Of a stretch of 64,000 bases of DNA, positions 19,587-55,002 are shown piece after piece; positions within the stretch are counted from its first letter, which is position 1; the number at the start of each line of letters is the position of its first letter. Source of the stretch: Changchengzhania lutea (lineage in GTDB: Bacteria > Bacteroidota > Bacteroidia > Flavobacteriales > Flavobacteriaceae). The DNA is taken from assembly GCF_006974145.1 (NCBI RefSeq), contig NZ_CP039456.1:3038499-3102498 (forward strand), written 5' to 3'. The notes under the pieces were generated by a model, which ran no database searches, was not told the origin of the DNA, and was given only the letters and a program-made list of their open reading frames with translations. A program made the position numbers and the translations under genes.

Positions 19587-19682
19587 AACATGAAATATCC
19601 ATAACTAAAACTTGATACCCAAGTGAAATGATTAAATGGATGTCGCATGTGACCAATAAAAAACAATACATATAAACACATG
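19587..19682 (+). repeat. Repeated leader element, copy A (start codon of ABC ATPase at its right end)
   Basis: This 96-bp stretch is nearly identical to 31358-31453 (minus strand, two differences) and to 33604-33702 (two substitutions and a 5-base insertion). It begins ACATGAAA (ATG at 19590) and ends ACATG, whose ATG at 19680 is the ABC gene start; ATGAAA is thus repeated 90 bases apart. Inside are ATATCCAT...ATGGATGT, an ACTTG-ATACC-CAAGT hairpin, and CATGTG (19646-19651), which can pair with CACATG (19677-19682). A 15-codon reading frame runs from 19628 to a TAA at 19673-19675, 4 bases before the gene. Confidence 0.85.
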
Positions 19683-20567
19683 AAATTAATCATCAAAGAT
19701 TTAACAAAAACCTATAAAAATGGTGTGAAAGCCATTGACAATTTAAACTTAGAAATAGGATCAGGAATGTTCGGTTTATTAGGGCCTAACGGTGCTGGTA
19801 AATCCTCTTTGATGCGTACCATTGCAACCTTACAAAGTGCCGATTCTGGTACGATTACGTTTGGTGATATTAATGTCATGGAAGATAAAATGGAACTTCG
19901 AAAAATTCTGGGCTACTTACCACAGTCTTTTGGTGTGTACCCAAAAATGTCCGCTGAGGATTTGTTAGATTATTTTGCCACCTTAAAAGGGATTAGCTCG
20001 AAGTCCGATCGGGCCAAAATAGTTGACGAGGTTCTTGAAATCACTAATTTATCTGATGTTCGAAAGAAAAATGTTTCTGGATATTCTGGTGGTATGAAAC
20101 AACGTTTTGGTATTGCGCAATTGCTTTTGAATAATCCGAAGCTTATTATTGTAGATGAACCTACGGCAGGTTTGGACCCCGCAGAACGCCATCGGTTTTT
20201 AAATGTACTACGTGAAGTCGGCACCAATTGCACAGTCATATTTTCAACCCATATTGTTGAAGATGTTAAAGAACTTTGTAATGAGATGGCTATTTTAAAT
20301 GGTGGTCGCATTTTAAAGCACACCACGCCAGTTGAAGCGACCAGTGAGATTAGTGGTAAAATATGGACCAAGGTTATTTCGAGAGACGAATTGGAGGCTA
20401 TGGAGGCATCGTACAATATGCTATCATCCAACTATAATCAAGACAATACCTTAAACATTCGTGTTTACGCAGATGATAAACCAGCAGATGATTTTATTCA
20501 ATCCACCCCGCAGTTAGATGATGTTTACTTTATTGCCTTAAAGCATGAAGAAATTGAAATCGTCTAA
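19680..20567 (+). CDS. ABC transporter ATP-binding protein
   Basis: The 295-residue ATPase has Walker A GPNGAGKS (35-42), a Q-loop near PQSFG (81-85), the signature YSGGMKQR (135-142), Walker B LIIVDEP (155-161) and the switch histidine H191 in STHIVED. It resembles the ATPases of NatA/CcmA-type exporters. It powers the membrane partner encoded 32 bases downstream, a permease fused to an M1 peptidase. Its start codon is the right end of repeated leader A, so expression may depend on that leader. Substrate unknown. Confidence 0.95.
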   Translation: MKLIIKDLTKTYKNGVKAIDNLNLEIGSGMFGLLGPNGAGKSSLMRTIATLQSADSGTITFGDINVMEDKMELRKILGYLPQSFGVYPKMSAEDLLDYFATLKGISSKSDRAKIVDEVLEITNLSDVRKKNVSGYSGGMKQRFGIAQLLLNNPKLIIVDEPTAGLDPAERHRFLNVLREVGTNCTVIFSTHIVEDVKELCNEMAILNGGRILKHTTPVEATSEISGKIWTKVISRDELEAMEASYNMLSSNYNQDNTLNIRVYADDKPADDFIQSTPQLDDVYFIALKHEEIEIV

Positions 20568-28506: not shown

Positions 28507-28690
28507 GGTTCCCACGCTCTGGCGTGGTCAGGCTTTCCGCTATATCTTTTTAAAAAGTCTCGTTTTTATAATGACGAGAACGGAAACGACGCTAATTGTT
28601 TTATTCATTAGCACATGGCTTCGGCAAAAAAATGGCCTCACCATAACGTTTCAATATTTTTAAAAAGGATGCCGCATCAATCCTTAACCC
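28507..28690. repeat. Degenerate dispersed repeat with several hairpins
   Basis: The stretch opens with a CCACGC-TCTG-GCGTGG hairpin, then GGCTTTCCGCTATATCTTTTT; a related half, TTTTTAAAAAGGATGCCGC, appears near 28657-28675. GCTAATTG...CATTAGC lies between them. From memory this resembles a repeat common in Flavobacteriaceae intergenic regions. It fills most of the 294-base gap between divergent genes, and nothing codes within it. Confidence 0.45.
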
Positions 28691-28729
28691 ATTATCTGCA
28701 ATTGCTAGTTAATTAAAGCAAAATTACGT

Positions 28730-30849: not shown

Positions 30850-31360
30850 CTTCTACAGATTGGTTGTCGGTTACAGGTTGTCTTGAAAGGATCCAATTAT
30901 CACCATCTTCTACAATAGTGAGGGTGACGTTTTTAAAAATGGTTTTATATCCACAGGCGCGTGATACATAGACTTCTTCGCGACTATAATTAATGGTAAT
31001 CCTATCTTGATTGCCATCAATAAAGTCATCGCTAGTATCATCGGGTGTGTCGTTATCATTTACAGAGGCTTCTTTTATTAGAATATATTCTGTGGTATTG
31101 ACGTCTGTTCTTAATGGGAGTATCAAATTGTTTGAGGACACAATGCCATATCCAGGTAAAAACTCGTCGTTATCTACCCCAATAATAAATAATCCAAAAA
31201 CGTTTTTTTTGCTTTCTGGATTATTTGCATCATACACATCAATAATTAATCTTGGCGTTGTTGGGGTTTCAGCTGGACATAAATCATCACGTTCGCAACT
31301 TATGGTTATTCCTACTATCAAAACGATACCGGGCAAAAGCAAGAATTTAAAATATTTCAT
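30815..31360 (-). CDS. DUF6452-like lipoprotein
   Basis: The 181-residue protein has a lipoprotein signal ending ITISCERDD (C22) and a beta-sandwich-like body with a disulfide-capable C-G pair near SRACGYKT. The cluster rlmD, then this gene, then the DUF6048-like gene is one I recall for DUF6452. The start codon is the right end of repeated leader copy B, so its translation may be governed by that element. The function is unknown; the location is presumably the periplasm or outer membrane. Confidence 0.65.
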   Translation of the reverse strand: MKYFKFLLLPGIVLIVGITISCERDDLCPAETPTTPRLIIDVYDANNPESKKNVFGLFIIGVDNDEFLPGYGIVSSNNLILPLRTDVNTTEYILIKEASVNDNDTPDDTSDDFIDGNQDRITINYSREEVYVSRACGYKTIFKNVTLTIVEDGDNWILSRQPVTDNQSVEDETAAHFTISH

Positions 31361-31453
31361 GTGTTTATATGTATTGTTTTTTATTGGTCACATGCGACAT
31401 CCATTTAATCATTTCACTTGGGTATCAAGTTTTAGTTATGCATGTTTCATGTT
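31358..31453 (-). repeat. Repeated leader element, copy B (start codon of DUF6452-like gene)
   Basis: On the minus strand this reads as copy A with two differences (CATGCAT in place of TATCCAT). It sits between the rlmD stop (31490) and the start codon at 31360. The left ATGAAA begins at 31450 and the right one at 31360, 90 bases apart as in copy A. CATGTG (31394-31389) can pair with CACATG (31363-31358). The internal 15-codon frame is unchanged. The outer stem has one mismatch in this copy. Confidence 0.85.
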
Positions 31454-33057: not shown

Positions 33058-33600
33058 ATGAACGATAAACAGCAATTGATAGATAGACAACTGGTTTTAG
33101 ATTATCAATCTGGAAATAAACAAGCCTTAGTGACATTAGTGAGACGTTGGCATGCTGTTTTTTGTAAAAAGGCCTTTTGGATTCTAAAAGATGCTGATGT
33201 GGCAAAGGACATTGCACAAGACAGTTGGTCTATCATTATTAATAAAATAGACCATTTAAAGAACCCAAATAGTTTTGGTTTTTGGGCCTCACGAATTGTG
33301 TACAATAAATCTTTAGATGTTATTAATGCTGATAAAAGAATCCGTAACACTTATGACGATTACGGTTATGAACATGATTATATAGAAAATGAAACAGGGG
33401 ATTTTGAGAAGGCTTTAAAGAAACGACTTTATGCGGCGATAAGAGAGTTACCAGAGCACCAACAGACGGTGATTAGATTGTTTTACATAGAAGATTATTC
33501 TTTAAAAGAAATTAGTAAACTTTTAAATATATCGATAGGAACTACCAAATCCAGATTATTTCATGCTAGGGAAAAATTGAAATTAATAATAAAAAAATAA
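33058..33600 (+). CDS. RNA polymerase ECF sigma factor
   Basis: The 180-residue protein has sigma-70 region 2 (about 25-95, including DVAKDIAQDSW, the core-binding helix) and region 4 (about 120-175, with LPEHQQTVIRLFYIEDYSLK and the HTH ISKLLNISIGTTKSRLFHA). No region 3 is present, as expected for an ECF factor. The next gene encodes a membrane protein that may bind or restrain it. Copy C of the repeated leader begins 3 bases after its stop codon and separates the two genes. Confidence 0.92.
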   Translation: MNDKQQLIDRQLVLDYQSGNKQALVTLVRRWHAVFCKKAFWILKDADVAKDIAQDSWSIIINKIDHLKNPNSFGFWASRIVYNKSLDVINADKRIRNTYDDYGYEHDYIENETGDFEKALKKRLYAAIRELPEHQQTVIRLFYIEDYSLKEISKLLNISIGTTKSRLFHAREKLKLIIKK

Positions 33601-33603
33601 ACA

Positions 33604-33702
33604 AATGAAACATCCATAACTAAAACTTGATACCCAAGTGAAATGATTAAATGGATGTCGCATGTGACTAATAAAAAACAATAAATTAAATATAAACACA
33701 TG
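33604..33702 (+). repeat. Repeated leader element, copy C (start codon of membrane partner gene)
   Basis: This 99-bp copy differs from A by two substitutions and a 5-base insertion (AATTA in AATAAATTAAATAT) close to the start codon. Left ATGAAA is at 33605 and the right one at 33700. ACATCCAT and ATGGATGT pair perfectly here; CATGTG at 33661-33666 faces CACATG at 33697-33702. The inner frame is 13 codons and ends earlier (CAA TAA). It begins three bases after the sigma factor stop, i.e. in an operon gap. Confidence 0.85.
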
Positions 33703-34086
33703 AAAACGAATAACGAAGAGATTGACAGATTAATAAAAGAGACACTCACTGAGGAAGAAGGGAAATTTTACGATGCCCTAGAAGAACAAAATGTGCTGCA
33801 TATGGTTGGCGGATTATTTCAAGGCAAAAACAAGTGGATCATGTATTTAATGAATGTAATGACCTTGATTTTATTTGCGCTGTTTGTATATTGTATCATT
33901 CAGTTTTTTGATTCAGAACTTACTAATGATATGATAAAATGGGGGCTGGGAAGTATATTGTTTATGCTCGGAGTTAGTATGTTAAAAGTTTTTGCTTGGA
34001 TGCAAATGGACAAAAATGCTTTAATTAGAGAAATGAAGCGATTAGAATTACAGATATCTTCGCTATCTGGAAGAATGTCTGAATAA
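33700..34086 (+). CDS. Two-helix membrane protein downstream of ECF sigma factor (DUF6768-like)
   Basis: The 128-residue protein has an acidic cytosolic N-terminus (NEEIDRLIKETLTEEEGKFY, residues 4-23), two membrane helices (about 47-70 and 79-103) and a short cytosolic tail. This layout and its place directly behind an ECF sigma gene suggest a membrane partner or anti-sigma-like regulator, although it lacks a recognisable anti-sigma zinc motif (HxxxCxxC). I associate it with DUF6768 from memory only. Its start codon belongs to leader copy C. Confidence 0.65.
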   Translation: MKTNNEEIDRLIKETLTEEEGKFYDALEEQNVLHMVGGLFQGKNKWIMYLMNVMTLILFALFVYCIIQFFDSELTNDMIKWGLGSILFMLGVSMLKVFAWMQMDKNALIREMKRLELQISSLSGRMSE

Positions 34087-46442: not shown

Positions 46443-46611
46443 ACTGCCTACATTGGTTATTATTTTTGATAAACTCAACGTTAATTCTTTAAAAAGGGTG
46501 AGTTTAAGTTGTAAAAGCAGGCTGCCTTGAGCAGATCCTTGATCAGCTTGTTAGCCCTAAACTTGTTTTTAAGGAGTTTATACAAAACATTATACTGGTG
46601 TAGGCTTTTTT
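46443..46611 (+). ncRNA. ssrS: 6S RNA (flavobacterial type)
   Basis: The gap between zapA and rny contains the ends GCCTACAT (from 46446) and GTGTAGGC (46599-46606 region), which pair as a closing stem. Inner pairing includes AAACTCA with TGAGTTT, a CTTGAGCAG...CTTGATCAG region, and a large open middle, the typical 6S layout that mimics an open promoter. A T-run follows. 6S RNA binds the housekeeping RNA polymerase holoenzyme. The call rests on position (next to zapA) and on the stem; a covariance search would settle it. Exact ends are uncertain by several bases. Confidence 0.75.
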
Positions 46612-54139: not shown

Positions 54140-54524
54140 TAAAATTAATACTAACTGAATTTACACAATAACGTGTTCCGGTTTCTGTTGGGCCATCATT
54201 AAAAACATGCCCTAAATGACTTCCACAATTAGAACATACAATTTCGGTTCGAGTCATACCATGGGTTTTATCCAAAATGTAGTCCACCGTTCCTTTAATG
54301 GATTCATCAAAACTAGGCCAACCGCAGTGCGCATCAAATTTACTATCACTTTCAAATAATTGCTGATGGCAAGCAGCGCAGGCATAAGCGCCTTTTTCAA
54401 AATGAAGATTGAATTTTCCTGTATGCGGTCGCTCCGTCCCTTTAGTTCTTAATACGCGATACTGTTCTTCAGTAAGCGCTTCCCGCCACTCATTTTCTGT
54501 TTTTTTAATGTTATAATCACTCAT
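54123..54524 (-). CDS. msrB: Peptide methionine (R)-S-oxide reductase MsrB, cytosolic copy
   Basis: From ATG 54524 (133 residues; another ATG at 54536 adds four) the protein is a complete MsrB with zinc cysteines C49/C52 (CAACH) and C97/C100 (CSNCG), the HCGWPSF substrate loop and the catalytic C120 in RYCVNS. It reduces methionine-R-sulfoxide in proteins. It has no signal and so acts in the cytosol. It overlaps the exported msrB copy by 8 bases. Confidence 0.9.
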   Translation of the reverse strand: MSDYNIKKTENEWREALTEEQYRVLRTKGTERPHTGKFNLHFEKGAYACAACHQQLFESDSKFDAHCGWPSFDESIKGTVDYILDKTHGMTRTEIVCSNCGSHLGHVFNDGPTETGTRYCVNSVSINFNEDEK

Positions 54525-55002
54525 TTTCTGGTACAAATTTTAAGGCAGCGCCGTTAATACAATGTCTTTTTCCTGTAGTATCTTTTGGACCGTCGTTAAA
54601 AACATGGCCTAAGTGACCACCACAGGTAGCGCAATGTTCCTCAGTTCTTACATAACCCAAATTTCTATCTGTAGAAAATGCGACATTCCCTTCAATTACC
54701 CTATCAAAACTAGGCCAACCGGTACCGGAATCAAATTTATGTTCGCTTTTAAATAAGGCCGTATGGCATCCAGCACAGTGATAGGTTCCTTCCTCATAAT
54801 TTTTGTTTAAAGGGCTAGAAAAAGCACGCTCTGTACCGGCTTTTCTTAAAACATTATACTCTTGTGGTGTAAGCTCCGCCTTCCATTCAGCATCTGTTTT
54901 AGATACTAGGAAGTTTTCTTTTTCTTTAGAATTTTTCTTCTGTGCACCAGAGTTACAGCTACTAAATATAATAGCTATTAGTATTATGGTTAATTTTTTC
55001 AT
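54517..55002 (-). CDS. msrB: Peptide methionine (R)-S-oxide reductase MsrB, lipoprotein copy
   Basis: The 161-residue protein has a lipobox signal (IIFSSC, C16) followed by a full MsrB domain: zinc cysteines C76/C79 and C124/C127, GTGWPSF (94-100) and catalytic C148 in RHCINGAAL. It would repair oxidised methionines in envelope proteins. It is the first of two msrB genes in one operon with DinB, so the pair splits the same activity between envelope and cytosol. Confidence 0.9.
   Translation of the reverse strand: MKKLTIILIAIIFSSCNSGAQKKNSKEKENFLVSKTDAEWKAELTPQEYNVLRKAGTERAFSSPLNKNYEEGTYHCAGCHTALFKSEHKFDSGTGWPSFDRVIEGNVAFSTDRNLGYVRTEEHCATCGGHLGHVFNDGPKDTTGKRHCINGAALKFVPENE

Follow-up and report, generated by a model that had tools for sequence, protein, structure and literature searches.

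Repeated Unit at Three Gene Starts

The window, a 64-kb stretch of the Changchengzhania lutea genome, contains three unrelated genes that begin directly behind nearly the same short sequence, and the question raised by this locus is what such a sequence is and how it came to lie there. Measured from the A of its left ATGAAA to the end of its right ATGAAA, the unit was found as copy A (19590..19685, + strand, 96 nt), copy B (31355..31450, - strand, 96 nt), and copy C (33605..33705, + strand, 101 nt, with a five-base insertion near the right end). Copy A precedes a gene for an ABC transporter ATPase (PF00005; 19680..20567, +) and copy B a DUF6452 lipoprotein-like gene (PF20050; 30815..31360, -). 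Copy C is located between a gene for an ECF-type sigma factor directly upstream of it (33058..33600, +) and the neighboring DUF6768 gene (PF20556; 33700..34086, +). Thus, the three copies described in the initial annotation, at gene starts on the +, -, and + strands, were all recovered. Its placement of the copies held, but not its starting points: the true unit begins at the left ATG (19590, 31450, and 33605), and the earlier starts lay 1-3 bases before it, with that of copy C one base early.

The right ATGAAA (A, 19680..19685, +; B, 31355..31360, -; C, 33700..33705, +) carries the start codon in use, so that, as was claimed, the right-hand ATG opens the ABC ATPase, DUF6452, and DUF6768 genes, respectively. 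The left ATGAAA of copy A (19590..19595, +), read as the native gene start before insertion, now begins a four-codon ORF, MKYP stop; the corresponding ORFs are MKHA stop in copy B (31445..31450, -) and MKHP stop in copy C (33605..33610, +). The reported ATG-to-ATG spacing of 90, 90, and 95, the two positions differing between copies A and B, and the lack of relationship between the flanks outside the edges were likewise reproduced. All three copies agree exactly over a 54-nt core, which had no matches in shuffled sequence. No fourth convincing copy was found when the window was scanned with a sequence model of the family.

Elsewhere in the window, Rfam matches were found to Flavo-1 RNA (28522-28694, -; 173 nt, through an insert) and to 6S-Flavo RNA (46473-46579, +). 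Two 98-nt direct repeats (54306-54403 and 54703-54800, 71% identical) are probably related neighboring coding sequences.

Copies in the C. lutea Genome

The closed 4.13-Mb genome to which the window belongs (G000) has about 26 copies of the 96-nt unit, and the proposed genome-wide search thus yielded about 24 further copies outside the window, with ATGAAA at their edges. A 107-nt query matched 27 places in this genome, mostly at full length and with 78-100% identity. When aligned, the copies have sharp edges, with ATGAAA on the left and on the right and unrelated sequence outside. In 25 of the 27 places the right ATG is the opening of a gene; the remaining two (L006 and L020) are intergenic. 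Judged by their N-termini, the target genes presumably include those for a photolyase, a LacI-type regulator, and a UDP-glucose dehydrogenase, together with pssA and proC.

The unit exists in several subtypes. At one locus of this genome (L019), two different subtypes stand in tandem, and the apparent orthologue in genome G006 (L048) has the older subtype only. The proC gene, identified by identical N-termini, apparently bears different subtypes in G000 (L024) and G213 (L366), and the differing sequences therefore suggest independent insertions at one start codon.

Empty Sites and Direction of Change

Comparison of orthologous loci, which had been suggested as a check, revealed sites with one start codon and no element as counterparts of copies A, B, and C, and likewise at pssA and at serC, the last at the DNA level in three congeners. 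Copy A has an empty counterpart in G005 and copy C in both G005 and G008; for copy B, an orthologue without the element was found in G006. Such empty sites consist of the native promoter and leader, a single start codon (often ATGAAA), and then codon 3. In the relatives, the pssA start directly follows a conserved promoter-like TATTTTTAC and a leader. In the window genome, an equivalent promoter and leader are followed by the left ATGAAA, the element, the second ATGAAA, and codon 3. The serC gene presents the reverse case: the element is present in G006 but absent from the window genome and numerous other genomes. The serC junction is uninterrupted in three congeners of G006 (83-84% identity), whereas in G006 it is split exactly at ATGAAA. 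Because relatives have these empty counterparts, the change is read from the alignments as an insertion, with one start before it and two ATGAAA after it.

Two other inserts were noted at these genes. In G019, about 90 nt before the pssA start, two ATGAAA enclose an insert other than the element, also of about 90 nt (L080); this pssA start is occupied by the element in the window genome, and the insert possibly represents a second family with the same habit. A palindromic repeat, CCCTTTCCTTTGGAAAGGGTTAGGGATAGG, directly precedes the serC start in the window genome, and G019 has it there in a slightly altered form (L109 and L110).

The observations are very probably explained by a family of non-coding, non-autonomous mobile elements, with about 90 nt plus the 6-nt ATGAAA core, which insert site-specifically and in one orientation at ATGAAA. 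After insertion, the promoter and native leader of the host gene remain in place to the left of the element. At its right end, the element has an A-rich leader that closes with CACATGAAA and provides a new start codon and lysine; the reading frame therefore remains untouched. The old ATG turns into the beginning of a short upstream ORF, usually of 4-5 codons. The six common bases could be either a target duplication of fixed sequence or a core brought by the element; these cannot be separated since ATGAAA also ends the element. The alternative offered in the initial annotation, a duplicated regulatory cassette, is weaker: the downstream genes are unrelated and vary by genome, and their orthologues are mostly without the unit.

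Target Preference

ATGAAA was found at the left edge of 112 of 129 copies and at the right edge of 126, in a set partly chosen by the right end. In the left flank, positions -3 and -10 to -12 show an enrichment of A, which is characteristic of initiation regions in Flavobacterium (F. johnsoniae; PMC6847099). The left ATG was therefore usually a former working start.

Only about 11-17% of ATGAAA motifs in background sequence are gene starts. For non-coding ATGAAA the fraction is 58-62%, compared with 25/27 copies in the window genome and 60/71 in others; with crude gene calls, the excess corresponds to P of about 4e-4 and 2e-6, respectively. Copies at intergenic ATGAAA were also found, two in the window genome and approximately nine elsewhere. 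Additionally, one copy (L250) interrupts a gene of the uracil-DNA-glycosylase family, which also holds a stop; the homologue is uninterrupted in seven relatives. These intergenic copies and the copy within a coding sequence indicate that the target is the ATGAAA motif and not the start codon as such. Of the earlier proposal of a mobile element that targets start codons, the mobility is thus supported by the further copies and the empty sites, while the target has to be corrected to the six bases.

Other ATGAAA sites would accordingly be hit as well, with insertions inside genes mostly lost by selection. Such purging accounts for most of the placement at gene starts, but perhaps not for all of it: gene starts are in excess even relative to other non-coding ATGAAA, and something besides the loss of coding insertions may be at work. 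Persistence at gene starts is probably favored, because the inserted end restores the start.

Predicted Fold, Conserved Boxes, and Upstream ORF

In the predicted fold of each unit, an outer stem encloses an inner hairpin, and a right stem, CATGTG/CACATG, follows with the start codon in it. In copy A (all + strand), the 5' arm of the outer stem (19595..19602) pairs with the 3' arm (19636..19643), and CATGTG (19646..19651) pairs with the start-codon-containing CACATG (19677..19682). The sequence of the outer stem is replaced wholesale between subtypes. Its arms scored 15.1 for pairing within an element and 12.6 when exchanged between elements (sd 0.30; none of 2000 permutations was as high), and the outer stem accordingly covaries. 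The right stem is altered on both sides, to CATCTG/CAGATG, in the copies of G194 and in L036. A consensus fold across all subtypes retained the right stem only, since the outer stem sits in different columns depending on the subtype. The most conserved stretches of the element are the right end, AAAAACAATAAATATAAACACATGAAA, and the box AATGATTA between the stem arms (19628..19635, + strand in copy A), with ATGAT near-invariant across subtypes.

The element contains no ORF of its own, and no Rfam match above the gathering threshold of any family was found. Among 74 non-redundant copies with a left ATG, the ORF beginning there stops within six codons in 59, compared with about 34% in shuffles; this excess is only suggestive, because the copies are related.

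These features would also suit a cis-regulatory leader RNA, the copies of which form a regulon and are kept for their use, the right stem over the start codon and the short upstream ORF controlling translation. The sense orientation, the position at start codons, the covarying stems, the stem over the start codon, and the early stop in 59/74 copies all speak for such a role. Nevertheless, we consider it very unlikely as an explanation of the family: the target genes are unrelated and differ by genome, most orthologues are without the unit, copies occur at intergenic ATGAAA and within a gene, the left ATG has been lost in 10 of 84 copies, and no Rfam family corresponds to the unit. Individual copies of the mobile element could still have been co-opted for regulation.

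Several variants and neighbors were recorded separately. Two loci of Lutibacter NORP71 (L202 and L211) contain longer variants with the common right end and a different, longer middle, several copies being present in one genome. At L172:1436 and L195:3306 (-), a conserved ORF of 17 codons (MKQALINFKNYFTKGNV / MKRTLRNFKNYFTKGNV) follows the right end of the element and may encode a small protein that has not been annotated. In many genomes, the element has other palindromes, TCCCGATAGCTATCGGGA, CCTGCC..GGCAGG, and gctgagcgcagtcgaagca, inserted at its CATG or close by (L183, L187, L189, L203, L206, L246, L198, L226, L231, L247, L033, and L025), as if this CATG attracted a second kind of insertion.

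Distribution and Age

The sequence model detected members in 86 of the 199 genomes sampled from the same bacterial family, and single genomes had up to at least 23 copies. Approximately 21 candidates were scored per genome, and the copy counts are therefore lower bounds. A search of named genomes with the right-end pattern resulted in at least 120 stretches, mostly from Flavobacteriaceae. The genera among the matches listed include Winogradskyella, Lutibacter, Wocania, Flavivirga, Arenibacter, Psychroflexus, Gelidibacter, and others; Niabella, Vicingaceae, and Salinivirgaceae were the other Bacteroidota among them. The element family is common in marine flavobacteria, and the suggested search of related strains located it at other genes in other genera. 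No copies were found in the viral contigs, phages, and plasmids searched.

In G000 and G006, most copies have a nearest neighbor with 97-100% identity, whereas the nearest copies in G147 and G167 are 74-84% identical. From this near-identity in two genomes and divergence elsewhere, the activity of the element is inferred to be recent and lineage-specific; the identities fit bursts with subsequent decay. Units often stand in tandem or are nested, with up to four at one locus (L205 and L039); in addition to L019 of the window genome, such arrangements were found at L198, L206, L215, and L223.

The comparisons show that the element inserts at ATGAAA in a fixed orientation, restores the start codon, is structurally constrained, and has been mobile recently.

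Possible Mobilizing Systems

No mobilizing enzyme has been identified, and none of the loci fetched contains a larger, gene-bearing version of the element. The GC skew of 20 sampled stretches was too irregular to place the origin and terminus for a check of orientation bias relative to replication. It is inferred that an enzyme acting in trans on folded and probably single-stranded DNA would treat ATGAAA as the core of the exchange, and that pairing of the internal CATGTG with CACATG would guide the right end.

Within the reading as a mobile element, our first choice, tentative and not demonstrated, is a miniature element mobilized by an HUH (Y1) enzyme of IS200/IS605 or TnpA-REP type through a single-stranded circle, with insertion on the 3' side of a fixed short target read by base pairing. 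Elements of the IS200/IS605 family use a guide to recognize a specific tetra- or pentanucleotide, insert 3' of it, and do not duplicate the target (PMC7290912). The fixed target, the single orientation, the structured ends, and the lack of an open reading frame agree with such a mechanism, and the recently active genomes G000 and G006 carry many PF01797 genes (10 and 14). However, none of the PF01797 loci inspected in G000, G006, and others has the ends of the element, the right stem contains the putative cleavage site with no separate hairpin, and G005, G021, G147, G167, G142, and G203 have copies without any PF01797 match. The last four have at least 11 copies each, although the sampled copies of G147 and G167 look old by their divergence. 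The main alternative to a Y1 enzyme is a tyrosine- or serine-type site-specific recombinase integrating a circular form at the 6-bp ATGAAA core. An identical core at both edges that is present once in the empty site, as well as tandem arrays with one core per junction, speak for it; no such gene linked to the copies was noticed, in the absence of a genome-wide search, and we hold this alternative to be rather unlikely. Almost no credence is given to a classical MITE of a DDE transposon with target-site duplication. Six identical bases on both sides, single in the empty sites, resemble such a duplication, but the near-invariance of ATGAAA at the edges, rather than a site-dependent sequence, largely refutes it; moreover, the orientation is fixed and terminal inverted repeats are lacking (left ATGAAACATCCATAAC compared with TTTCATGTGTTTATAT, the reverse complement of the right end).

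Several candidate partners of the element were rejected. IS200-type transposons with mapped ends in G000 and G006 have ends unlike those of the element. No Y1 gene with element ends was seen in 15 element-rich genomes, and by our own estimate the element neighbors Y1 genes within 1.5 kb there at about chance frequency. The RAYT genes of G000, G013, and G019 are flanked by other repeats. Separately, at L073 (G000:C1:1490918-1491247), a TnpA-REP-like (Y1) frame is joined in frame to a coproporphyrinogen-oxidase-like (hemF) N-terminus, with REP-like palindromes on either side.

Among known systems, PATEs, the ends-only derivatives of IS200/IS605, are similar in being non-coding, structured, moved in trans, and directed to a fixed short target without terminal inverted repeats. 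As regards the insertion site of PATEs, ATGAAA is fixed at the left edge and single in empty sites, yet it also ends the element, so that a duplication and an element-borne core look alike; as regards subterminal hairpins, the left stem covaries, and the putative cleavage site lies within the right stem. Unlike PATEs, the element bears one 6-nt core at both edges and a restored start codon, its right stem covers the core, and no partner transposase with its ends was found. The likeness to IS200/IS605 may thus lie in the mode of action, by analogy, and membership is not established. REP/REPIN sequences with TnpA-REP (RAYT), especially of the Bacteroidetes subclass 2.6, are likewise short, folded, dispersed, and non-autonomous, with species-specific bursts, and atypical structures flanking subclass 2.6 genes occur elsewhere in the genome (PMC6006769). 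REPs are described as palindromes of 20-40 bp, most with GTAG or CGTC tags (PMC3733652). In contrast, the element has 96 nt and a fixed ATGAAA edge, and other repeats flank the RAYT genes here.

HEARO / IscB elements sit next to ATGA or GTGA. They may share with the element an ATGA-type target and a structured nucleic acid; HEARO is larger and tied to an IscB gene, whereas the element has neither an ORF nor an Rfam match. BOX, RUP, and other bacterial MITEs are also short interspersed repeats of likely mobile origin, but none is known to insert with single-base precision at start codons and to supply a replacement for them.

Implications

The element was not found described in the open-access literature searched, which leaves out most subscription journals. 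We consider the family undescribed so far, and replacement of the start codon is its distinctive feature among small non-autonomous mobile elements. A bolder proposal, which remains speculative, is a novel class of mobile elements specialized on the translation start, combining insertion at ATGAAA, an initiation region and start codon of its own that let host genes survive, an internal CATGTG guide pairing with the CACATG core, an as yet unknown enzyme other than IS200/IS605 TnpA, and co-option of some copies as leaders for translational control.

To strike a start codon and return another is a simple, low-harm route into crowded bacterial genomes. The leaders of many Flavobacteriaceae genes are affected, which bears on start-site annotation, promoter-to-start distance, and expression work. 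Together, the empty sites and the recently active genomes provide a concrete system for finding the unknown mobilizing enzyme.
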